This document shows, one piece after another, positions 1-31,758 of a stretch of DNA of 31,758 bases. Location: IMG/VR virus record IMGVR_UViG_3300002134_000200, positions 1-31,758 of that record; one strand, 5' to 3'. A program made the position numbers and the translations under genes. This DNA comes from a virus. Numbering within the stretch: position 1 is the first letter of the stretch; the number at the start of each line of letters is the position of its first letter. The notes beneath the pieces were generated by a model, which saw only the letters and a list, made by a program, of their open reading frames with translations, did no database searches and was not told the origin of the DNA.

Positions 1-204
1 CTAGTAGGAGGAGTAAATACAGGTAATAAGTCTCGGTCTCGGTCTCGGTTTGGGCCTCGGTTTAGCTCTGTGTCTGGGCCTTGGTCTTGCTCTGTGTTTG
101 GGCCTTGGTCTTGGTCTGGGTCTGGGTCTCGGTCTTGGTCTGTGTCTAGGTCTTGGTCTATGTCTAGGCTTTATTATTACTCAAAATCAAAAGGCAGTTT
201 ATGA
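1..204 (+). CDS. Array microgene unit 0 (5' end cut by window edge)
   Basis: This is the 3' part of an array ORF, open for 67 codons from base 1 in the same frame as the later units. It begins inside the conserved N-terminal core (LVGGVN, then NKS). A Ser-X tract follows with X = Arg, Gly, Trp and a few Val, Cys and Met, and it ends with YYYSKSKGSL. The TGA stop at 202-204 overlaps the next ATG (201-203). The start codon and about the first four codons lie outside the window. Function is unknown. Confidence 0.6.
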   Translation, partial: LVGGVNTGNKSRSRSRFGPRFSSVSGPWSCSVFGPWSWSGSGSRSWSVSRSWSMSRLYYYSKSKGSL

Positions 205-452
205 TAACGATACTATTAAGTGGATTAAATACAGGTAATAAGTCTGTGTCTGAGTCTGTGTCTCGGCTTGGGTCTAAGTCTCGGTCTCGGTCTTGGTCTA
301 GGACTAGGTCTGTGTCTTGGTCTGGGCCTTGGTCTGGGTCTTGGTCTGGGTCTTGGACTGGGTCTAGGTCTTGGTCTTGGACTGGGTCTAGGTCTTGGTC
401 TGGGGATGGGCTTAAGTATTATAAATACTCAAAATCAAAAGGCAACTTATGA
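201..452 (+). CDS. Array microgene unit 1, Ser-X dipeptide repeat protein (83 aa)
   Basis: The start is ATG 201, six bases after an AAAAGG ribosome binding site. The product has three parts: a hydrophobic N-terminus (MITILLSGLN), a linker NKS, and about 50 residues of alternating Ser-X with X mostly Arg, Gly or Trp. It ends in YYKYSKSKGNL. This N-terminus is the most divergent of the set (LLSG in place of LVGG). Its stop overlaps the unit 2 start as ATGA, so reinitiation is likely. I recognise no family. The alternating pattern would put Ser on one face and Arg/Trp/Gly on the other of an extended strand, which is inference only. Confidence 0.6.
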   Translation: MITILLSGLNTGNKSVSESVSRLGSKSRSRSWSRTRSVSWSGPWSGSWSGSWTGSRSWSWTGSRSWSGDGLKYYKYSKSKGNL

Positions 453-682
453 TAGCAATACTCGCAGGTGGATTAAATGCAAGTAATAAGTCTGGGTCTA
501 GGTCTGGGTCTCAGTCTTGGTCTCAGTCTTGGTCTTGGTCTAGGTCTGGGTTTTGGTCTCGGTCTTGGACTGGGTCTGGGTCTTGGACTGGGTCTGGGTC
601 TAGGTCTTGGACTGGGTCTAGGTCTTCGGCTGGGTCTAAGGCTTTGTATTATTATTATTCAAAATCAAAAGGCAACTTATGA
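449..682 (+). CDS. Array microgene unit 2, Ser-X dipeptide repeat protein (77 aa)
   Basis: ATG 449 overlaps the stop of unit 1 and has the usual AAAAGG site. The N-terminus reads MIAILAGGLN, then ASNKS. The Ser-X tract contains two Gln at X positions and several Thr replacing Ser, and it ends YYYYSKSKGNL. Bases 495-616 are identical to 1101-1222 in unit 5, so the tract was copied between units. A second frame (Gly-Leu repeats) is also open here from an ATG at 477, but that ATG is absent from several units. No family recognised. Confidence 0.6.
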   Translation: MIAILAGGLNASNKSGSRSGSQSWSQSWSWSRSGFWSRSWTGSGSWTGSGSRSWTGSRSSAGSKALYYYYSKSKGNL

Positions 683-876
683 TAGCGATTCTAGTCGGTG
701 GATTAAATGCAAGTAATAAGTCTTGGCTTGGGTCTCAGTCTAGGTCTTGGTCTGGGTGTAGGTCTAGGTCTGTGTCTGGTTCTTGGTCTTGGTTTAGGTC
801 TGGGTCTGTGCCTTGGTCTTGGTCTCGGTCTATGTCTGGGCTTTATTATTACTCAAAATCAAAAGGCAGTTTATGA
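679..876 (+). CDS. Array microgene unit 3, Ser-X dipeptide repeat protein (65 aa)
   Basis: ATG 679 overlaps the stop of unit 2. The N-terminus is MIAILVGGLN followed by ASNKS. The repeat tract is shorter and less regular than in units 2 and 5, with Cys, Val, Phe and Pro among the X and Ser positions. The C-terminus is LYYYSKSKGSL. All departures from GGTCTN are substitutions that keep the six-base phase. No family recognised; expression is assumed from the conserved start, RBS and frame. Confidence 0.6.
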   Translation: MIAILVGGLNASNKSWLGSQSRSWSGCRSRSVSGSWSWFRSGSVPWSWSRSMSGLYYYSKSKGSL

Positions 877-1058
877 TAGCGATTCTAGTAGGGGGGTTAA
901 ATAGAGGGAATAAGTCTAGGTCTGGGTCTAGGTCTTGGACTGGGTCTAGGTCTGGGTCTAGGTCTGGGTCTTGGACTGGGTCTGGGGCTGGGTTTTATTA
1001 TTGGTCTGGGTCTTGGTCTGGGTCTTATCTTCACTCAAAATCAAAAGGTAATTTATGA
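873..1058 (+). CDS. Array microgene unit 4, Ser-X dipeptide repeat protein (61 aa)
   Basis: A longer reading of this frame begins at 813, but the conserved start with RBS and ATGA overlap is ATG 873. The N-terminus is MIAILVGGLN then RGNKS. The tract is split by FYYW, and the tail is YLHSKSKGNL. Bases 982-1099, covering the end of this unit and the start of the next, are identical to 1218-1335. The last complete unit therefore arose partly by copying this one. No family recognised. Confidence 0.6.
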   Translation: MIAILVGGLNRGNKSRSGSRSWTGSRSGSRSGSWTGSGAGFYYWSGSWSGSYLHSKSKGNL

Positions 1059-1294
1059 TAACTATACTAGTAGGTGGATTAAATAGAGGGAATAAGTCTA
1101 GGTCTAGGTCTGGGTCTCAGTCTTGGTCTCAGTCTTGGTCTTGGTCTAGGTCTGGGTTTTGGTCTCGGTCTTGGACTGGGTCTGGGTCTTGGACTGGGTC
1201 TGGGTCTAGGTCTTGGACTGGGGCTGGGTTTTATTATTGGTCTGGGTCTTGGTCTGGGTCTTATCTTCACTCAAAATCAAAAGGTAATTTATGA
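1055..1294 (+). CDS. Array microgene unit 5, chimeric Ser-X dipeptide repeat protein (79 aa)
   Basis: The start ATG 1055 follows the sequence AAAAGGTAATTT. The tract 1101-1222 is identical to unit 2, and the tail from 1218 is identical to unit 4, so this unit is a mosaic of two neighbours. The product is MITILVGGLN, then RGNKS, Ser-X repeats, FYYW, a short second repeat stretch, and YLHSKSKGNL. A Pro-Arg frame of 63 codons is open on the opposite strand, an automatic consequence of the hexamer. Function unknown. Confidence 0.6.
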   Translation: MITILVGGLNRGNKSRSRSGSQSWSQSWSWSRSGFWSRSWTGSGSWTGSGSRSWTGAGFYYWSGSWSGSYLHSKSKGNL

Positions 1295-1389
1295 TAACTA
1301 TACTAGTAGGTGGATTAAATAGAGGGAATAAGTCTTGGGCTGGGTCTTATTTTGATTTATTAGCAAGAGTCAATCTTATTGAGTATTAA
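1291..1389 (+). CDS. Degenerate last unit of the microgene array (32 aa)
   Basis: This unit keeps the RBS, the ATG overlapping the stop of unit 5, and the full conserved N-terminus (MITILVGGLN, RGNKS). It holds only about two hexamers before unrelated sequence (YFDLLARVNLIEY). The SKSKGNL tail is missing and no further ATGA follows. It looks like the decayed or not-yet-expanded 3' boundary of the array. It may be non-functional. Confidence 0.4.
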   Translation: MITILVGGLNRGNKSWAGSYFDLLARVNLIEY

Positions 1390-3866: not shown

Positions 3867-6800
3867 TCAAGCTATAGTGCCAACTGGTAAATATCTAAAG
3901 CCTACCGTTCCAATATTAACTCTAATAAAATGCGTTACGGTCAAAGTTTTTGCGCCCACCGCTTCTATAGCATTACCAGTGCCAATTGTGGCGTTAAACT
4001 CTATCAGTTCTCTTGATGTATCGGCTTGTGATAAATATAAAGCTGGTATTCCACCAGAGGCAGAATTTTGATTAGATGTAAGTTGACCGCTTGCAGATCC
4101 TCCACCAAATACCGCCCAACCACTATTTGTTATAATAAGTGGCTCTCGTTTTGCAGATCCATCATCATTGATCTGCCTAAAGATGTAATTACCCTCATCT
4201 GATATAATGTCGCATATTTTATTATTGGTTGATGCACTATTATCTCGCATTCGCAAAAAAGCTGCCGCCGTTCCTGCTATTTGCAATACTTGATTCGCCC
4301 CACCGCTGACTGTCACATTGTTATTAGTCTCTATATTTATAGCAGTCCCACCAGAGCCACCGAGTCGCAATTCACCTGCTCCATTATTTATAACAACAGC
4401 ATTTCTATCTGCAACGGTTATGTAGACTGATGAATACATTGTTATATTAAAAAGATTGGCAGTGTCATTCTTAAGTTGCAATTGTGTTACTGAAAAGGCA
4501 TTAGCCGCTGCGCCCTCAAGTAATAAGTTGGTCTCACCAATAAGGTTGCGGTAAATATGTAACGCCTTGCCTGCTGTTGGGTTAACCCCTATACCAACAT
4601 TGCCATTTGCAAATACAATTTCATCAATTGTTGTTCCTGTTCTTTGAACCTCTAGCCAAGTTGTACCAACAGTGTCGCCATCGTTAATAGCTGTCATGTA
4701 AAGGTTTTCATTTGCAGCTAATATTTTCCAACGCTTGTTATCTACCGCGCCATTTCCTTGATAGAAAGTCAATTGCGGGGCTGTTGTATCTTCTAGGGCA
4801 AGGGTGTAGCCACCATTGGCTTGAATATGAACCTTGCCTGCTGTTGGGTTACCCCCTATACCAACATTGCCCCCACCTGGATTTAACAACAAATCAGTAA
4901 ACGATGTTTCAGCGTTATTAGAAGCCTGAATATAGGCATACTGCCCAACTCCGCTTTGCCAATAAGCCCCTAAAGTTAAGCGTTGGTCGGCACTATCTAA
5001 AACTTGCGTGCAACGATCGCCTGTAGTGCTTGCCATACTAAAATTATGCGTGCCTGCGCTTAAATAAGTTCTTGCCAGTGGGTTAGTCCCTAGCCCTAGA
5101 TTTCCACTAGTTGTTAGTGCAACAAGATCATTTGTACCTAAACCAGAGCTATTTGATATTTTAAAAATATTGCTATCGGATTTATCTATACCAAGTGAGA
5201 AATCAGCAGAAGCAGCTGTATTAAAATAAATAAAAGGGTCACCACCACCAACCGCCGTATTTATAATTAACCTAGCATTTGCTCCAGAGGTAGAATTAGT
5301 GTTCTGTATCCGCCCCCCTACCGAGCCTGTACTGCTGCGTGTGATAGTTAAATCGCTTGTGATAGTTGTTGATGTGCCAGTAGGTGCAAGAGTTAAATTA
5401 CCACTAGAATTAACAGTAATACTTGCATAAGTAATAGCATCAAAACTAGCTCTTATCTGTTCGGTTGTGGCTAAACTATTTATTTTACCACCACCAGAAA
5501 TAACAGCCCCAAACACCCAATTACCACCAGCCAATAATGCCCCGTGATTTACAATTCCGTTGCCGTTCTGAAAATAAGTATCACCAGTAATATCAGAGCT
5601 GCCGATATATAAATTATCAGGGTTAGTACTATCTAATAATAAAACTTGTGCATTTATACCATTTGATTTCTTAATAAAATAACCTGCAAGGTTTGCAACA
5701 GTTACGCTGTCAAATGTGATATCTTGTGGTAGCGTTAAAGTAACCGCCCCTTGTTGAGCGGAGCCCGACACGCCGTTTACTAAAACTTGTCCAGCAGTGC
5801 CAGTAACAGAGGTTACGGCTTGAGAAGAAAAATCACTTAAAAGCAAATTTCCGTCAAAGTCGGTTGTTAAAAATTTCCCATCCCCACCAACTAGTGAAGT
5901 AAAACGTGCAGTTGATAATACCACATTATCTTTAACTTTTATTTTACTTTCACTAAACTCAAGATTAGTTGTGTTAATATCGGCTGATATAGTGCTGCCT
6001 GTAATGTTAATCCCATTGCCACCAGTAAAACTAACATCAGAAACCCAGCTTGTATTTGTCCCATCTGTACTTAGAAATTTTCCATTGTTTAGGGCTTGGT
6101 CAGGTAGTAAAGCGTTTAACGCTGCATTGGCTGTTGTCTCACCTGTCCCCCCATAGTCTATTGCTATTGGATCACCTTGCCACTTCCCAGAAATAATTCC
6201 TGTTGTGAATAAGTTCCGTGTACCTAAATTAACATTTTGGGTTGCGCCGATATATGGAACATAACCCGATAAATCCCCACTAGTGATATAGCCCGCATCA
6301 TTATTCCATTGAGAAACATCTGGAGAATCAAAGTCCGCGACTGTTAAGGGATTAAGTGAAAAATTGCCAGAGTTGGGATCATAAACTATTGGAGGTGTTG
6401 CGTTTACCTGACTCCTTAATCCCCCACCTCCTCCCATCCATCGGTTGTTATTTAGGTTGATTCTTCCAACTGATATTTCCCTACCATCCGATAGATGAAT
6501 TATTATTTCCCCATTATTTGTGGTTATTATATCCTTAATACTACAACCATCTAATCCTGGATCTCCAGGCTTTCCTTTCTTCCCCGGCTTCCCTTTGATT
6601 TCATCTATAGAAAATAAAGGATTAAGCACTTCGGAGTTTTCTTTTTTCCAAAATACTACATCATTGCTGCGTGTAAGCTCTATAGATAAACCATCTAATC
6701 CTGGATCTCCAGGCTTTCCTTTCTTCCCCGGCTCTCCCTTTTTACCGGGTATAGGATCTTCCTTTACCTTACCAGCATTTACTATCTTGCCGTCAAACAT

Positions 6801-6962
6801 TGTAAGAAAAAGATTGTTATTCTCAATTTCAGCATCTTTTATACTATTAAAAAACTTCTTAACAATAAGTTGCCTTGGGTTGTTTTCAACAATCTTAACC
6901 CTATTTTCAAGGCTTTTAAGCTTTTTTACAAATTCTAAAAGTACAGAAAGTTTTTTGTTCAT
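3867..6962 (-). CDS. Large tail fibre / receptor-binding protein with collagen-like segments (1031 aa)
   Basis: The N-terminus (about 1-30) is a probable coiled coil. Two collagen-like Gly-X-Y stretches follow at residues 72-91 and 124-139, both carrying GKPGDPGLDG. A glycine run sits at about 177-181, then a long beta-rich, Thr/Ser/Asn/Gly-rich region with recurring GNVGIG-NPTAGK-type blocks, typical of trimeric phage fibres. It has the size and composition of a trimeric adhesin. No catalytic motif or intramolecular chaperone domain is obvious at the C-terminus. The start overlaps the upstream gene's stop by one base. It probably determines host range. Confidence 0.85.
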   Translation of the reverse strand: MNKKLSVLLEFVKKLKSLENRVKIVENNPRQLIVKKFFNSIKDAEIENNNLFLTMFDGKIVNAGKVKEDPIPGKKGEPGKKGKPGDPGLDGLSIELTRSNDVVFWKKENSEVLNPLFSIDEIKGKPGKKGKPGDPGLDGCSIKDIITTNNGEIIIHLSDGREISVGRINLNNNRWMGGGGGLRSQVNATPPIVYDPNSGNFSLNPLTVADFDSPDVSQWNNDAGYITSGDLSGYVPYIGATQNVNLGTRNLFTTGIISGKWQGDPIAIDYGGTGETTANAALNALLPDQALNNGKFLSTDGTNTSWVSDVSFTGGNGINITGSTISADINTTNLEFSESKIKVKDNVVLSTARFTSLVGGDGKFLTTDFDGNLLLSDFSSQAVTSVTGTAGQVLVNGVSGSAQQGAVTLTLPQDITFDSVTVANLAGYFIKKSNGINAQVLLLDSTNPDNLYIGSSDITGDTYFQNGNGIVNHGALLAGGNWVFGAVISGGGKINSLATTEQIRASFDAITYASITVNSSGNLTLAPTGTSTTITSDLTITRSSTGSVGGRIQNTNSTSGANARLIINTAVGGGDPFIYFNTAASADFSLGIDKSDSNIFKISNSSGLGTNDLVALTTSGNLGLGTNPLARTYLSAGTHNFSMASTTGDRCTQVLDSADQRLTLGAYWQSGVGQYAYIQASNNAETSFTDLLLNPGGGNVGIGGNPTAGKVHIQANGGYTLALEDTTAPQLTFYQGNGAVDNKRWKILAANENLYMTAINDGDTVGTTWLEVQRTGTTIDEIVFANGNVGIGVNPTAGKALHIYRNLIGETNLLLEGAAANAFSVTQLQLKNDTANLFNITMYSSVYITVADRNAVVINNGAGELRLGGSGGTAINIETNNNVTVSGGANQVLQIAGTAAAFLRMRDNSASTNNKICDIISDEGNYIFRQINDDGSAKREPLIITNSGWAVFGGGSASGQLTSNQNSASGGIPALYLSQADTSRELIEFNATIGTGNAIEAVGAKTLTVTHFIRVNIGTVGFRYLPVGTIA
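6545..6733. repeat. Duplicated 45-base collagen-coding segment inside the fibre gene
   Basis: Bases 6545-6589 and 6689-6733 are identical over 45 positions and encode the two Gly-X-Y stretches of the fibre (KKGKPGDPGLDG). The offset of 144 bases keeps the reading frame. Identity at third codon positions points to recent duplication or gene conversion. Confidence 0.9.
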
Positions 6963-10352: not shown

Positions 10353-11605
10353 TGATTTAACCCTCTGGGGTCTAAACCATTTTCAAGAAGTCTTTTTTCT
10401 ACTGCGGCGCGGCTTTTCCCTGCCGCTATTGCTGCCCTTGCTTTTTCATAAGGGTCTACAGGCTCTAAGGTACTTCTAAACGCTCCTTGAGGAGATAAAT
10501 TACCTTCTATATATGGCGCTAGCTCTTGTGCGGAAGTTGCCTCCATCATATCTCTAGGTGAAGGTAAGTTTATATCTTCAATTCCCCCAAATCGTTTATA
10601 ATCCTGCTCATATGCAGTTCTTACATTTTGAAGTGAGCGAATCCTTTTCCTTCTAAAATCCTCAAGGTTTTTTAGAAATTGTTCTTCCCCTTGTGAGCTT
10701 AAAAGATTTTGGGCGGATGCTTGAAGTAATGCCAACTCTACTTCTGTGACTTGACCCAGGGCCCCTCCTGTTGGAGAATTATCACGCATCTCTTGTAATG
10801 CGTCAAAGCCGGCATTTGCTAGTAGTGTATCAACGTTCGCTTTTAATCTAAAAGCTGGTGTATTAGGAATTGCTCCAGTTAATGCGCCTGTAAAACCTGT
10901 AGAACTCCAGGCATTCCTAGCTAAATCTGCTATTTCTTGAACTTTAGGTTGTATAAATTCTTCTGTAAGCTCTTTTGACTGTAAAGATCTCTGTATCTGT
11001 GGCAAGGATTGTTTCCCTTTTTCTAGATATTCCGCTTTTAAACCTGCTTGTTTGGTCTTAGCTTCTATCTTAGGGTTCATTTGAAGATCAACGTTTTTTT
11101 CCTTCTGCCTTTCAGCAGCTTTTGTACTAGACACAGCCTCATTATAACCTGGTTTTATAGTTGGATTCCCAAAATCATCAATTACAATACCCTTACCTGC
11201 GTTAGCTTTTCCAAAATAAGCATCCTTTAAATCTGGCTCATTCTGTAATCTATTCATAAATACTCCAGTACTACCCCCGGCATTCATTTGGTTGATCTGA
11301 GCTTTTTTATATTCCCTATCTAATTTAAACGTAGAAAGAGTGTTGGATGTTATGGCCTGCATTTCATTAACCCAATCTGGGTCATATTGTTGTGGTACTT
11401 TTCCAGACTTTATATCATCTGGTGCTATTATGCCTGAATTAACGCCGATTTGGATTCTTTTAGAATAATTTTCCGGGCTTACGCCATTTAAAAGCTCAGA
11501 AGCCGCAGCAAGTTTTTTTTCAGCAAGCGCAAATTGGCTCCCTTGGTTGGTTAAGTCGTTTTGAACTATCTTTTGCCCTTGTTGATATGCGTCCCATTTA
11601 GCCAT
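10349..11605 (-). CDS. Probable DNA ejection / internal virion protein (418 aa)
   Basis: A long, mostly helical, Gln/Ala/Lys-rich soluble protein (MAKWDAYQQGQKIVQNDLTNQ...) without a signal peptide. The middle of the three-gene ejection cluster is where P22-like phages encode gp20. The C-terminal part contains GNLSPQGAFRSTLEPVDPYEKARAAIAAGK, a typical linker-like end. The role is inferred from position and composition, not from a diagnostic motif. Confidence 0.65.
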   Translation of the reverse strand: MAKWDAYQQGQKIVQNDLTNQGSQFALAEKKLAAASELLNGVSPENYSKRIQIGVNSGIIAPDDIKSGKVPQQYDPDWVNEMQAITSNTLSTFKLDREYKKAQINQMNAGGSTGVFMNRLQNEPDLKDAYFGKANAGKGIVIDDFGNPTIKPGYNEAVSSTKAAERQKEKNVDLQMNPKIEAKTKQAGLKAEYLEKGKQSLPQIQRSLQSKELTEEFIQPKVQEIADLARNAWSSTGFTGALTGAIPNTPAFRLKANVDTLLANAGFDALQEMRDNSPTGGALGQVTEVELALLQASAQNLLSSQGEEQFLKNLEDFRRKRIRSLQNVRTAYEQDYKRFGGIEDINLPSPRDMMEATSAQELAPYIEGNLSPQGAFRSTLEPVDPYEKARAAIAAGKSRAAVEKRLLENGLDPRGLNQ

Positions 11606-11612
11606 TTTCTAC

Positions 11613-22765: not shown

Positions 22766-23107
22766 TTATCTCGCATTATTATTGTTTATCAGCTTATTGC
22801 TTGGTTGGTGTATTTTTTTTGATGTATTTTTTATTTTTTTTTGTGGCTCAAGAACAACTGGTTCTTTCTTAATTTCTATAGTTTCTATAGTTTCTATAGT
22901 TTCTATAGTTTCTATAGTTTCTTGAGGTGCTGTTTGAAGCCATTTTTCAATAAAGACACCTGATTTTTCAGGCTTTTTGGCTGTTTTAATAATTTTAAAA
23001 TCATAATCCCGACATTTTTTATTAATGATGTTTAGTGTTTCATTTGATATTGGGAGATTTATACTATCAACATACGATCCATATTTATCGTTAAGTACTA
23101 GATACAT
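22766..23107 (-). CDS. Hypothetical protein with Glu-Thr-Ile repeat (113 aa)
   Basis: The N-terminal half (MYLVLNDKYGSYVDSINLPI...) is folded-looking. Residues from about 62 contain five or more tandem ETI triplets encoded by a nine-base DNA repeat, followed by a basic tail ending NNNNAR. It overlaps the upstream gene by 17 bases and ends three bases from terS. Its place before the terminase suggests a packaging or DNA-associated role, which is inference. No family recognised. Confidence 0.6.
   Translation of the reverse strand: MYLVLNDKYGSYVDSINLPISNETLNIINKKCRDYDFKIIKTAKKPEKSGVFIEKWLQTAPQETIETIETIETIETIEIKKEPVVLEPQKKIKNTSKKIHQPSNKLINNNNAR
22873..22917. repeat. Nine-base tandem repeat TTTCTATAG x5 in coding sequence
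   Basis: Five perfect copies of TTTCTATAG occupy 22873-22917, and a degenerate sixth follows at 22918-22926. They encode the Glu-Thr-Ile repeat on the minus strand. Identity at all positions implies recent slippage expansion, in frame. Confidence 0.95.
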
Positions 23108-24357: not shown

Positions 24358-24828
24358 TTATTGAATTTTGTTGTATTTTAATCTAAGCTTTTTTAGACTC
24401 CTTTGCTGTATTGGGTACGATCTATCATATGCGGCCTTTTTATCAAGTTTATCAATTAATTTAATAATATCTGCGGGTTTTGGCATGACAGTCTCTTCCG
24501 TCATGTAAATTTTAAACGCTTTTTCTATTTTAGAATAATCATACTCAGCCAAAACCAATTGGAAAGCATGGCTGATGTTTTCAAGTTGATCAGGCTCTTT
24601 TCCAAAAATATCAAGAGAATCAAAGCAAATAAGTAATAAATGAGAAAGCTTACGCCTGCCCTCTTTATCCTCAAGCAAGGCCAAGGGCTTCTTTTGCTCT
24701 TTGGTGCTTAGATTTCGTTGTTGGGTGAATGTAGGACTGGATTGTATAATCATCTCTCCATGCTTCTTTTTCAAGCCATCTGAAAGCATCTTTATTTGAT
24801 TGTCCAGTTCTTCTGATATAAGCTTCAT
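24358..24828 (-). CDS. Possible helicase loader / replication accessory protein (156 aa)
   Basis: The frame opens at 24858, but ATG 24826-24828 has AAGGAG nine bases upstream, so I place the start there. That still overlaps the preceding replication gene by 158 bases in another frame; a TTG near 24684 would shorten the overlap but has a weak site. The part after about residue 40 is helical. The VMPKPADIIKLID motif resembles the end of the loader-and-inhibitor-of-G40P type domain found beside phage initiators. Role inferred from this motif and from the initiator upstream. Confidence 0.55.
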   Translation of the reverse strand: MKLISEELDNQIKMLSDGLKKKHGEMIIQSSPTFTQQRNLSTKEQKKPLALLEDKEGRRKLSHLLLICFDSLDIFGKEPDQLENISHAFQLVLAEYDYSKIEKAFKIYMTEETVMPKPADIIKLIDKLDKKAAYDRSYPIQQRSLKKLRLKYNKIQ

Positions 24829-25417
24829 AATTTCGTACTCCTTGCATAATATTTTCAATGTTATCTTTTTTTAACGCTATTACAAATTTACTCTGTGCAT
24901 CTTTTCTTGAACCTTTGCCGCGATTGTTTTGCGGATAAGCTAACCAAAAGTCACAAAAATTATTATCATCTATATTATTATTGTTTACATTGTTTACATT
25001 GTTTTCATTGTTATCTGTTGTTAGTCGTTTGTTATTCGTTTGTTGTTCGTTTGTTACTCGTTTGTTAACTTGCTTGTTACTCTCCTGATATTTATTGTAG
25101 TTAACTATTGATATTAAATGATTTTTATTCGTTGTTTCGCTTGTTAACTCGTTTGTTGATATAAGCTTTCTTATACAGGTCCGCGCTTGCATAACACTTA
25201 AGCCAGTTTCTTTATTAATTGTATTTAAAGATGTGATAAAAGAGCCTCTTTTAATAGATATGCCCCGCCATTGTGTATCTTTGTGATTGGCTCTTAATAA
25301 GCAATAAACAAAAAAATGCGATGTGTTAACATCGGTGAACCATTCCCAATCCTTAAAGCTCCTATACAATTGTATCCAACCTAAGCCATCACCTCTATCT
25401 TCTGGATATCTACTCAT
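24671..25417 (-). CDS. Phage replication initiation protein (248 aa)
   Basis: The N-terminus (GWIQLYRSFKDWEWFTDVNTSHFFVYCLLRANHKD) followed by GSFITSLNTINKETGLSVMQARTCIRKL is the winged-helix module typical of phage replication initiators. A low-complexity Asn/Thr-rich linker (about 125-155) leads to a C-terminal block, FCDFWLAYPQNNRGKGSRKDAQSKF ... KDAFRWLEKEAWRDDY. The order WH - linker - FW-x-AYP block is the usual layout. It probably recruits the host replicative helicase, helped by the downstream gene. Confidence 0.8.
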   Translation of the reverse strand: MSRYPEDRGDGLGWIQLYRSFKDWEWFTDVNTSHFFVYCLLRANHKDTQWRGISIKRGSFITSLNTINKETGLSVMQARTCIRKLISTNELTSETTNKNHLISIVNYNKYQESNKQVNKRVTNEQQTNNKRLTTDNNENNVNNVNNNNIDDNNFCDFWLAYPQNNRGKGSRKDAQSKFVIALKKDNIENIMQGVRNYEAYIRRTGQSNKDAFRWLEKEAWRDDYTIQSYIHPTTKSKHQRAKEALGLA

Positions 25418-29567: not shown

Positions 29568-30425
29568 ATGAAAGAATCAACAAAGCATTTTATAGATGCT
29601 AACATATCTGTATTGGTTTATGGCAATAGTGGCTGGGGTAAAACTCAAATAGTTAAGCAATGTGCAGAAGAATTAAACATGAAGTGTTATGTCTTGTCCT
29701 TGGCTGGAGTTGCTCCAGAAGATTTTGGAATACCGTCCACACAAAAAACACATTATCAATATTTACCGCCAAAATGGGCTTATAATTTTCATAAATCACA
29801 AGAAAGTTTTGTGTTATTTTTGGATGAGATCACACAAGCAACCGTACAAGTTATGCACGCTATCTATCCTTTAGTGCTAGAAAAGAGGGTAGGTGATTTA
29901 CATTTACCTAATATGCGTATAATTGCAGCGTCTAACCATGAATATGAGAATCAAAATCTTACACCTATAATGCAACCATTACTCAATCGTTTTGATGTGA
30001 TTGTAGATTTAGAAAAAGATTTTGGAGATACTTTGTCTCAAAATTTTTGGAAATATATCAAATCTAAATACAAGAATTTAGATAATGTTATTGATGTTTT
30101 GTTTGATCAACAAATAACAACTAATCCAAGGGCTTATGAGGTAGGTTTTAATTTCATACAAAACAATCCTCAAGCCTCAAAGCAACAAAAGATGTTAGTT
30201 CTAAGGCGTTCATTTGGCGATTTAGCCCCTGTGGTTTTAAAAAATCTAAAACAAGAAATTATAGAGAATGAAACAAATGATAATAGTAGAATTAGACACG
30301 CTGCGAGGGCATTTAAAAATAAGATGCTTTTTGTTGATGGAAAATTTGAAATAAACCCCACTAAAGAATTAATTAGTAATATTTATAATTTAAGTGAGGA
30401 GGAAAAGGCCAGTGCTTTTATCTAA
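29568..30425 (+). CDS. MoxR-type AAA+ ATPase (285 aa)
   Basis: Walker A GNSGWGKT (19-26), Walker B VLFLDE (82-87) and an LLNRFDVIVDL segment (arginine-finger/sensor region) identify a MoxR-type AAA+ ATPase. The LAGVAPEDFGIPS block after the first strand is also typical. The protein lacks extra domains. AAGGAG precedes ATG 29568. It overlaps the following vWA gene by 14 bases, the usual MoxR-vWA partnership in which the ATPase acts as a chaperone on or with the vWA protein. Unusual in a small P22-type phage. Confidence 0.88.
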   Translation: MKESTKHFIDANISVLVYGNSGWGKTQIVKQCAEELNMKCYVLSLAGVAPEDFGIPSTQKTHYQYLPPKWAYNFHKSQESFVLFLDEITQATVQVMHAIYPLVLEKRVGDLHLPNMRIIAASNHEYENQNLTPIMQPLLNRFDVIVDLEKDFGDTLSQNFWKYIKSKYKNLDNVIDVLFDQQITTNPRAYEVGFNFIQNNPQASKQQKMLVLRRSFGDLAPVVLKNLKQEIIENETNDNSRIRHAARAFKNKMLFVDGKFEINPTKELISNIYNLSEEEKASAFI

Positions 30426-31488
30426 AACAGAGAAGCTTATTAGAGTCGCCGTTATTGAGGGTAACTTAACAATGGCTAAACTAATAAGGTTATTACAGCC
30501 TATGGATGGTGGCTTAGCTGCCACTGATGGCAACGCTATATATGTATCAGATAAGTTTTGGGAGCTTCCATTAGATCAACAATATTTTATTGTAAATCAT
30601 GAGTTTCTACACATTATATTAAACCATGTAGAGCGCAGCAAGGGTAAAGATAAATATATTTATAATTTAGCCGGTGATGTGATTGTTAATGATTTACTTT
30701 GTAAGCGTGGTCGGAGAATGCCAAAAGGCGCTATAACGTATAAATCTTTAGAAGTTCCTAGCGATTTTAAAACAACAGAGCAAATCTATGATTACTTGTT
30801 AAAAAATGCCAAAAATCTTGATCCTAATCCTGATTTCAACCAAGATTTAACAAAAGATATAAAAGAAAAAGCAAATAAAGAAGTTACGCAAGAAATCAAA
30901 AAACTTGCTGATACCGAAATAAATCAATCCTATAAAAACGCTGCTATTTTAGAGAAGATAATTCCACCAACACAAGATATTAGACAAGTGAGTTGGTTTG
31001 ATAAATTGATCGTAGAAATAGGACGTTTAGCTCTAAAGACAAACGAAAAAACTTACTCACGCCCACCAAGGGTAGAAGTTAAAGGGTGTATTATGCGCGG
31101 TGGTTATATTAAACAGTATATTCCAAAGATCAACATTATTATAGATGTATCAAGTTCTATGGGCGATGAACCTTTGAAAATTGCGGCAAAGATTAACGCG
31201 GCAAAACAGAAGCTTAAGATATTTTTGCCTAAATACTTTTGGTTAAATACCTTTTTTGGGGAAATTACAGATATATCAAAGATTCCATTAGGCGGTGGTA
31301 CAGATTTATCTAATGTATTAAAAATTTCTGGTGCGGATCTAAATGTTTTAATTACAGATTGTGAGGATGAGGGGGGGATAGATAAAATAAATAAATCTAC
31401 AAATAGGTTGTTTGTTATTACTACTAATTCGCAAACAAAGTTAAAAAATACTCAGAGTCACAAAATAATACTTATAAATAATTTTTAA
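30412..31488 (+). CDS. Metallopeptidase-like / vWA protein, DUF2201 type (358 aa)
   Basis: A GTG at 30394 extends the frame, but AGGAGG lies nine bases before GTG 30412, so I start there. The N-terminal domain has an HEFLH zinc-peptidase motif (63-67) in an NHEFLHIILNH context, the putative metallopeptidase part of DUF2201. A charged helical linker (about 130-190) follows. The C-terminal vWA-like domain keeps the MIDAS pattern: DVSSS (from 245), GGTDLS (Thr297) and ITD (Asp316). It is the partner of the MoxR ATPase and the last ordinary gene before the microgene array (ATG 31503). Confidence 0.85.
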   Translation: MLLSKTEKLIRVAVIEGNLTMAKLIRLLQPMDGGLAATDGNAIYVSDKFWELPLDQQYFIVNHEFLHIILNHVERSKGKDKYIYNLAGDVIVNDLLCKRGRRMPKGAITYKSLEVPSDFKTTEQIYDYLLKNAKNLDPNPDFNQDLTKDIKEKANKEVTQEIKKLADTEINQSYKNAAILEKIIPPTQDIRQVSWFDKLIVEIGRLALKTNEKTYSRPPRVEVKGCIMRGGYIKQYIPKINIIIDVSSSMGDEPLKIAAKINAAKQKLKIFLPKYFWLNTFFGEITDISKIPLGGGTDLSNVLKISGADLNVLITDCEDEGGIDKINKSTNRLFVITTNSQTKLKNTQSHKIILINNF

Positions 31489-31758
31489 GCAAAAGGCAGC
31501 TTATGATAGCGATACTAGTAGGTGGATTAAATACAGATAATAAGTCTTGGTCTGGGCCTTGGTCTTGGTCTTGGTCTGGGTCTGTGTCTAAGTCTAGGTC
31601 TCAGTCTGGGTCTAGGTCTGTGTCTAGGTCTGGGTCTGGGTCTCGGTCTATTTCTTGGCCTAGGTCTGGGTCTAAGTCTGGGTCTAGGTCTGGGTCTGTG
31701 TCTGGGTCTGGGGTTGGGTCTCGGTTTGTGTCTTGGGGTGGGTGTTATTATTACTCAA
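31489..31758 (+). repeat. Tandem microgene array, right part (first unit, cut by window end)
   Basis: After the vWA stop, the sequence AAAAGG-CAGCTT-ATG begins the same core as in the left array, followed by about 34 GGTCTN hexamers and TATTATTACTCAA. Joining the two window ends would complete the core except for about 28 bases, so the array is interrupted by the window boundary and may contain further units. Confidence 0.9.
31503..31758 (+). CDS. Array microgene, first unit (3' end cut by window edge)
   Basis: ATG 31503 has AAAAGG six bases upstream and follows the vWA stop by 14 bases. The N-terminus is MIAILVGGLN then TDNKS. The Ser-X tract is the longest in the window, about 65 residues with X mostly Gly and Arg, some Trp, Val and Lys. 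It reaches YYYS at the window edge, so only a few codons of the tail are missing. Function unknown; it is presumably co-transcribed with the MoxR-vWA genes. Confidence 0.6.
   Translation, partial: MIAILVGGLNTDNKSWSGPWSWSWSGSVSKSRSQSGSRSVSRSGSGSRSISWPRSGSKSGSRSGSVSGSGVGSRFVSWGGCYYYS

Follow-up and report, generated by a model that had tools for sequence, protein, structure and literature searches.

A virus that carries long arrays of the hexamer GGTCTN, in which five bases recur while the sixth changes, raises two linked questions: what such DNA encodes, and how its variation arises. The array considered here lies in a stretch of 31,758 bases (the window) that makes up an entire IMG/VR virus record and also contains P22-like portal, coat and terminase genes. 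The trait turns out to mark a gene family carried by numerous uncultured phages, this one included, and usually accompanied by a partner gene with a predicted Sm fold; it was missed as such by an earlier sequence-only reading confined to this single window.

The hexamer array of the window

The array comprises eight units, all on the + strand, of which seven form a block at the left of the contig and one lies at its right end. The individual features are:

1..204, +, microgene unit cut at its 5' side by the contig end; tract 29-172 of 24 hexamers; tail YYYSKSKGSL*
201..452, +, microgene of 83 aa with head MITILLSGLNTGNKS; tract 241-420 of 30 hexamers
449..682, +, microgene of 77 aa around the tract noted earlier, with head MIAILAGGLNASNKS and tail YYYYSKSKGNL*
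489..650, +, tract of 27 copies of the hexamer GGTCTN within the 449..682 microgene, Ser-Arg (SR) frame TCT NGG
679..876, +, microgene of 65 aa; tract 719-844 of 21 hexamers
873..1058, +, microgene of 61 aa; tract 907-996 of 15 hexamers
1055..1294, +, microgene of 79 aa; tract 1089-1232 of 24 hexamers
1291..1389, +, vestigial last unit with head MITILVGGLNRGNKS, followed by hardly any repeat
31503..31758, +, first microgene of the right-end array, cut at its 3' side by the contig end; tract 31543-31746 of 34 hexamers

Each unit is laid out as a 15-residue head and a hexamer tract, to which complete units add a tail; heads read MIAILVGGLNxxNKS with variants, and tails are Y-rich and end in SKSK-G-N/S-L. 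Every ATG in the left block overlaps the preceding stop by four bases, as seen for the microgene at 201..452, and the right-end microgene starts 14 bases past the stop of the gene at 30394-31488. The tract at 489-650, inside the 449-682 microgene, confirms the location first pointed out (491-640); it has a long N string in common with the tract at 1089-1232, which is a recent copy within the array. Because both contig ends sit in the same type of array, the genome is probably circular or permuted and was presumably broken in the repeat. Positions 1 and 31758 both fall in array sequence, and a gap of ~28 bases would join them as consecutive units.

Counted with up to two mismatches across the five fixed bases, the window holds 175 GGTCTN hexamers in seven tracts, fewer than the about 200 copies originally claimed. 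G1 is conserved in 139 of these, G2 in 171, T3 in 143, C4 in 152 and T5 in all 175, and the description of five nearly fixed positions suits G2 and T5 but is generous for G1 and T3. The N base is G in 67, T in 51, A in 38 and C in 19 hexamers, a usage that contradicts the similar amounts of the four bases previously asserted (chi-square against uniform, p = 3e-6) and that also departs from the base composition of the window (p = 1e-11), a comparison that the same reading had called for. As that reading had stated, no indel breaks the six-base phase inside any of the tracts. No comparable tract occurs in 199 control viral loci (2.07 Mb), which excludes chance. Two frames run open through the tracts, TCT NGG, in which Ser alternates with Arg, Gly or Trp (Ser-X), and GGT CTN, which encodes Gly-Leu; the third contains 36 stops.

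Several other elements of the contig were recorded alongside the array. Immediately upstream of it, positions 29568-31488 encode an AAA ATPase and, after it, a putative metallopeptidase protein (DUF2201_N), and a gene for a YqaJ-family (RecE-like) recombination exonuclease lies near the array, with nothing tying the gene to array turnover. Near the N terminus of a large putative tail protein (3867-6962, -) lies a GxY stretch that resembles collagen (Pfam Collagen, E 2e-4, below the cut-off). A tail-protein query and a scan for a short pattern returned nothing relevant. A nine-base tandem repeat of 6.6 copies at 22865-22922, in the ORF at 22766-23107 (-), encodes an Ile-Glu-Thr repeat, and short 9-, 11- and 22-base tandem repeats at 24980-25082 lie in a DnaD-like helicase loader ORF (24671-25417, -).

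Ser-X microgenes across phages

A scan of viral contigs for four consecutive GGTCTN returned at least 119 stretches, and 67 of 119 among the matches listed hold tracts of 12 or more hexamers with variable N; among the matches listed for bacterial and archaeal genomes the same is true of 1 of 119, most being plain GGTCTC repeats. A second scan of viral contigs, for the other TCN Ser codons, gave at least 120 stretches, with Ser-[Arg/Gly/Trp] tracts, mostly of a single Ser codon, in 72 of 120 among the matches listed. Related loci were merged into 209 clusters, of which 165 contain at least 12 Ser and at least two each of Arg, Gly and Trp and 44 were dropped; at least 165 non-redundant viral loci, the window included, thus carry (Ser-[Arg/Gly/Trp])n microgenes.

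Over the 165 loci, X is Arg in 2079, Gly in 2001 and Trp in 1877 of 6499 cases, in near-equal thirds (mean fractions 0.337, 0.344 and 0.319, respectively). The joint share of the three residues is partly a matter of construction, because tract finding demanded Arg, Gly or Trp at X, but their near-equal split is not, and the reverse test from the partner gene (see below) used no such rule. The encoded microproteins (233 from 148 of these loci) have medians of 68 residues in length and +10 in net charge, and all 219 complete ones are positively charged. Neighbouring microgenes overlap by exactly four bases in 28 of 67 pairs, and up to 15 tracts, differing in their N strings, are found in one locus (L128).

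The main Ser codon of the tract is TCG in 78 loci, TCT in 57, TCA in 21, AGC in 8 and TCC in 1; AGT was seen in none of the 165, the codon patterns of both viral scans being unable to find AGY tracts. Ser codon purity has a median of 1.0 within tracts (at least 0.95 in 146/165 loci) and of 0.28 in the other ORFs of the same loci (155 loci). Most phages use three N letters, A/G/T or C/G/T, rather than the even four-letter choice envisaged from the window, and therefore have a single Arg codon, which is purely AGG or purely CGG in 120/143 loci; one Arg codon is a usual, not a strictly defining, feature of the family.

In these terms the window has more than the 12 Ser-X pairs that define a tract, with Arg, Gly and Trp all present: its seven tracts contain 121 Ser codons, all TCT (purity 1.0, against 0.27 in the other ORFs of the window), together with TGG 35, GGG 34, AGG 23 and CGG 9. 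It shares the short head and coupled tandem copies of its relatives, and its head MIAILVGGLN has been likened to MNxAILRTGFD heads by eye only. Since it uses both Arg codons, breaking the usual rule, and has no partner gene on its contig, we consider it a divergent or incomplete example of the family. Relatives of its own head sequence, sought in viral contigs, amounted to 0 stretches, and its array DNA had no match among GenBank phages.

Two further loci show related sequences. At 1820-2797 (oriented) of L183, Ser-alternating microgenes have many S, W, L, F, T and Y at X, not mainly R/G/W, and N is only A or T in the exact hexamers. L225 contains an (Arg-Pro)n ORF at 11385-11606, with related ORFs in seven array loci, which may be the opposite strand of the array.

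The family also bears on which frame is used. An ATG is open into the tract in the Ser-X frame for 131/142 tracts, against 15 in the Gly-Leu frame and 11 in the third (69 loci, near-duplicate loci included). Stop codons are rarer in the Ser-X frame than expected from independent columns, with 35 TAG observed against 101.6 (p = 2e-19) and 15 TGA against 24.3 (p 0.02) over 3796 codons, nine near-duplicate loci being left out. Among the six distinct heads of the window, codon differences are synonymous/non-synonymous at 31/45 in the Ser-X frame and at 15/72 and 7/77 in the other two; the corresponding figures for the tails are 3/2, 0/5 and 1/4. A Shine-Dalgarno-like motif was found for 36/142 tracts only, which weighs against the coding reading. 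The ATG test, the avoidance of TAG and the distribution of synonymous changes in the heads nonetheless uphold TCT NGG as the gene frame, in which N, as originally proposed, switches Arg, Gly or Trp after a constant Ser. The further suggestion that one face of the protein is thereby varied presupposes a strand structure, which nothing here shows.

If the Gly-Leu frame were instead the real product, N would be silent and its hypervariability neutral drift. This explanation was favoured at first, because the best conserved bases of the window, G2 and T5, are second codon positions in that frame, which is open through the tracts; it was dropped on the ATG test, on the heads and tails, which vary more synonymously in the SR frame, and on the phages with TCG, TCA or AGC tracts, which keep Ser-X and lose Gly-Leu. 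A silent N should, moreover, show four bases, which it mostly does not, and the Gly-Leu product is largely refuted and in our estimation extremely improbable. In the SR frame T5 and G2 are third codon positions, the reverse of the usual coding constraint, and therefore something besides amino-acid selection holds the DNA; the family-wide codon purity describes this pattern.

A structured RNA or a protein-binding array could itself be the conserved unit, with the protein as a by-product. Compared with dinucleotide shuffles, the unit of the window is predicted to fold more stably (z -5.7), and TCC tracts, which are predicted to be the most stable by far (-104 to -110 kcal/mol per 24 hexamers) and would form extremely stable RNA hairpins, are confined to the one locus of 165. 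On the other hand, the real order of hexamers folds no better than a shuffled one (mean z 0.05, 148 loci), the common hexamer types differ about twofold in predicted stability (about -30 to -66 kcal/mol per 24 hexamers), no Rfam match was obtained, and it is Ser-X, not a DNA motif, that stays constant across hexamer types. A conserved RNA or DNA unit is thus improbable; the folding predictions suggest that RNA structure may limit codon choice and argue that it does not explain hexamer order.

An upstream partner gene with a predicted Sm fold

Comparison of ORFs next to arrays with those of control loci (BLAST) singled out one family of small proteins, with 71 members in 70/139 array loci and none in 199 controls, the controls being viral loci fetched for other reasons and L351, one window in a genome locus, being left out of the 139. 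Profiles of two subtypes, which were built from the array loci themselves and are related to each other (hhalign E 4e-29), match 100/139 array loci and 0/199 control loci, as well as 10/102 pattern-hit viral loci without a called array and 1/119 genome loci. The partner is absent by profile from 39/139 array loci, some of which end close to the array; the window, whose contig ends inside its array, is among them and gives no profile match at E up to 10. The window ORF at 1677-1940, considered as a hidden partner, was ruled out, having no profile similarity and a single weak tblastn match only. An upstream partner gene is a common, not a strictly defining, feature of the family.

The partner usually lies directly upstream of the array, with a Ser-X ORF on its strand in 66/71 cases and a microgene start within 100 bases in 63/71 and within 30 in 55/71. 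The reverse test started from the partner: scanning for it alone yielded 386 stretches, 380 of them relatives, from which 79 loci were kept, near-duplicates included. A Ser-alternating ORF follows within 400 bases downstream of the partner in 70 of these (within 100 in 69), and in 59 of the 70 the top three residues at X are Arg, Gly and Trp. The link between partner and array is strong, not absolute, since seven of the nine partner loci without a Ser-X ORF had 3 kb of room for one.

Modelled with AlphaFold2, the two subtypes reach mean pLDDT values of 90.0 and 92.2. In Foldseek searches of the PDB, Sm/LSm or spliceosomal chains make up nearly all of the best rows for both (best E 1.8e-3 and 8.8e-4). 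Alignment with VIA-align reaches a Z of 10.4, over 64 residues at 1.5 Å, with the best 50 entries all Sm/LSm or spliceosomal by title; structural matches include PDB 1i8f, 1lnx and 4wzj. Both subtypes are accordingly predicted, with high confidence, to adopt a fold like that of the Sm/LSm/Hfq superfamily, which by itself shows no function. The Sm proteins of eukaryotes have tails rich in Arg and Gly, and RNA granules contain LSm proteins that have disordered regions; in the phages the low-complexity portion is encoded by a gene of its own, often repeated in tandem, with Arg, Gly or Trp at X, and we know of no Sm system with such a gene.

At the sequence level the partner lacks a recognisable Sm profile, eight proteins having only weak matches below the cut-off in Pfam. 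Five had likewise only weak matches below the cut-off in NCBIfam, and eight gave weak matches in PHROGs, with one exception to families whose function is unknown. Its best viral match by predicted structure (BFVD) is to proteins named DUF6948 (E 1.2e-4, TM-scores 0.56 and 0.54), from which it differs at 13% identity; no paper on the term was found in the literature searched.

Among 50,697 GenBank phages each partner query matched one, namely MW202573 and MW202825. In the former the partner is followed by a Ser-X microprotein annotated as 'hypothetical protein' (UOF78858.1), and in the latter a Ser-X frame lies downstream of the partner; a tblastn search of GenBank phages with a Ser-X peptide, run with the low-complexity filter on, gave no match. 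The partner was found in no plasmid, in 0/398 genomes from the phylum of the Lamprocystis genome (a search run without a positive control) and in 1/286 genomes from the phylum of a Patescibacteria bin, namely that bin itself. The latter locus (L319 / L653) has an array and an Sm-like partner (E 5.5e-37) on a 10 kb contig, perhaps a phage contig, binned to the Patescibacteria MAG.

Variation of the tracts and possible roles of the peptides

Strain comparisons, all of which are based on metagenome assemblies of a repeat, show how N changes. Between L158 and L174, N differs at 24/47 positions, G1 at 2/46, the second to fifth fixed positions at 0/185 and the flanks at 9/4603 bases, an identity of about 99.8%; the N strings of L158 are found again in another record, L220. 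The pair L583 and L590 differs at 1/4672 flank bases and 2/38 hexamers, readable as small in-register shifts, and L444, L448 and L450 differ by whole hexamers. In L446, L449 and L451 all 87 aligned hexamers are identical despite pairwise flank differences of up to 27/5674 and 30/7334 bases. The variation at N within populations that was looked for on the strength of the window is thus pronounced in the first pair and absent from the last three loci, and because some strain pairs swap N strings while others show no change, N change is episodic. Episodic in-register exchange of whole hexamers fits these strain pairs better than constant point mutation.

Along the tracts the order of X is near random, with a lag-1 identity of 0.319 compared with 0.346 in shuffles (z -4.5), a slightly raised value at lag 4 (z 3.4) and other lags within about 2.3. 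Neighbouring X repeats fall slightly below chance, WW pairs being the least frequent (509, compared with 586-654 for the other eight pairs).

Plain microsatellite slippage that started from a few ancestral blocks and is devoid of function would agree with the whole-hexamer indels between close strains, with the plain GGTCTC arrays of bacterial genomes and with the 26/141 tracts whose repeated N blocks are longer than in shuffles (p < 0.05; nine near-duplicate loci left out). The remaining 115 tracts have no such excess, and simulated tandem duplication and deletion produces strong autocorrelation that is absent from the data, with lag-1 identities of 0.92, 0.81, 0.50 and 0.37 when the units average 1, 2, 4 and 8 hexamers, respectively. 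Short slippage alone is excluded because units of 1-4 hexamers give 0.50-0.92 where 0.319 is seen, and in this respect the sequence-only reading, which had set N usage apart from slippage of simple blocks, was right. Functionless slippage also leaves the near-equal Arg, Gly and Trp, the avoidance of stops and the linked Sm-like gene unexplained, and we rate it as highly improbable.

Diversity-generating retroelements randomise template adenines, giving fixed scaffold bases and scattered hypervariable codon positions. A comparable targeted hypermutation, by which a phage or host enzyme would randomise every sixth base, would account for the contrast between N and the fixed positions and flanks in L158 and L174 and for an N order almost without autocorrelation, and the tracts do resemble these elements in their fixed scaffold bases and hypervariable codon positions. 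They differ in usually having one Arg codon per phage, where a random base should yield both, and in changing by whole hexamers; near-identical strains keep identical N strings, and most loci use three bases, several without A, instead of the four expected from randomised template adenines. The reverse transcriptase (PF00078) was found in 0/41 virus records, which include the window and may be fragments, in a search whose control matched 3/14 genomes. Another hexamer array with one variable base, the telomere repeats of Paramecium, owes its variability to telomerase copying; the present tracts are internal and coding.

We infer from the codon purity, the strain pairs and the lack of autocorrelation that tracts would evolve by in-register exchange, gain and loss of whole hexamers through recombination between tracts, under a selection that would keep Arg, Gly and Trp all present and the frame open. 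Were point mutation rapid enough to randomise N, the third positions of the Ser codons, at which changes are silent in four-codon boxes, should be scrambled as well; only 3.1% of 6499 Ser codons deviate from the phage's own main codon, which favours recombination. The single Arg codon per phage further suggests that each letter acts as an entire hexamer and that the remaining one of the four does not arise. In our judgement, in-register recombination combined with selection on Arg, Gly and Trp is the probable explanation, and a base-specific mutator an unlikely one.

In the account that we put forward, the array would be a tandem set of translated, overlapping microgenes, each consisting of a short head followed by (Ser-X)n. 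Comparison across phages shows X to be Arg, Gly or Trp, each about a third of the time and in nearly random order; gene neighbourhood and structure prediction further indicate that in most relatives the microgenes have as their partner an Sm-like protein, which is encoded upstream and to which they are apparently coupled in translation. The microproteins, which are basic and probably disordered, might serve as a multivalent partner that binds RNA or forms condensates, either together with the Sm-like protein or directly with RNA, a role that we propose tentatively. Composition would matter more than order in such a role, which we favour because the tracts keep their composition although their order is nearly unconstrained. 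We would give the whole account, from coupled Ser-X microgenes and Sm-like partner to in-register exchange and the RNA or condensate role, an even chance.

The same peptides could alternatively form a library of antagonists or binders, in which diversified Arg/Trp-rich sequences are directed against host membranes, nucleases or defence proteins and the Sm-like protein serves as carrier, regulator or antidote. Such a library would be in keeping with coupled tandem copies whose strings differ within one genome (as in L128), with the turnover of strings at the population level and with the basic, Trp-rich composition. PADLOC defence models gave no match, and a held composition with nearly free order fits binding that is driven by composition, not sequence-specific binding; we think a binder library unlikely.

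Six microproteins, five of them from the window, had no match in Pfam at E up to 1 and only weak matches, of E 0.046 or worse and below any cut-off, in PHROGs and NCBIfam. No description of either gene was found in the literature, in a search that covered few subscription journals and lay outside preprint servers; neither microgene nor partner is described in the curated families scanned or the literature searched. A parallel is provided by the repeats of Borgs, which are described as fast-evolving in-frame tandem repeats of extrachromosomal elements that encode disordered regions, differ within populations, are perfect at the amino-acid level and almost lack Trp (PMC9879509). The tracts share with them the fast in-frame evolution, the probably disordered product and the differences within populations, and differ from them in having one variable base in six, Trp at about a third of X and a linked partner gene (PMC9879509). 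They are not perfect amino-acid repeats of the Borg type, X being near random over Arg, Gly and Trp.

A more far-reaching reading, which we regard as doubtful, is that of a two-part system, in which an Sm-fold protein and its coupled Ser-X peptides would be served by a three-letter hexamer alphabet, shuffled in register by dedicated recombination, so that populations would carry a changing library of disordered RNA- or host-binding peptides. If true, this would be a diversity-generating system that lacks a reverse transcriptase, and bacterial viruses would offer a parallel to the Sm proteins that have Arg/Gly-rich partners. It would then also become testable how one base in six can be near random while the other five, synonymous sites included, are uniform within a phage and differ between phages. 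Should the reading hold, phages would encode Sm-type proteins together with a separate, rapidly rearranged Arg/Gly/Trp/Ser partner, and it would become testable whether selection on a disordered protein sees composition and not sequence order, a question for which these near-random strings of fixed composition, many of them already written by nature, would be the material.
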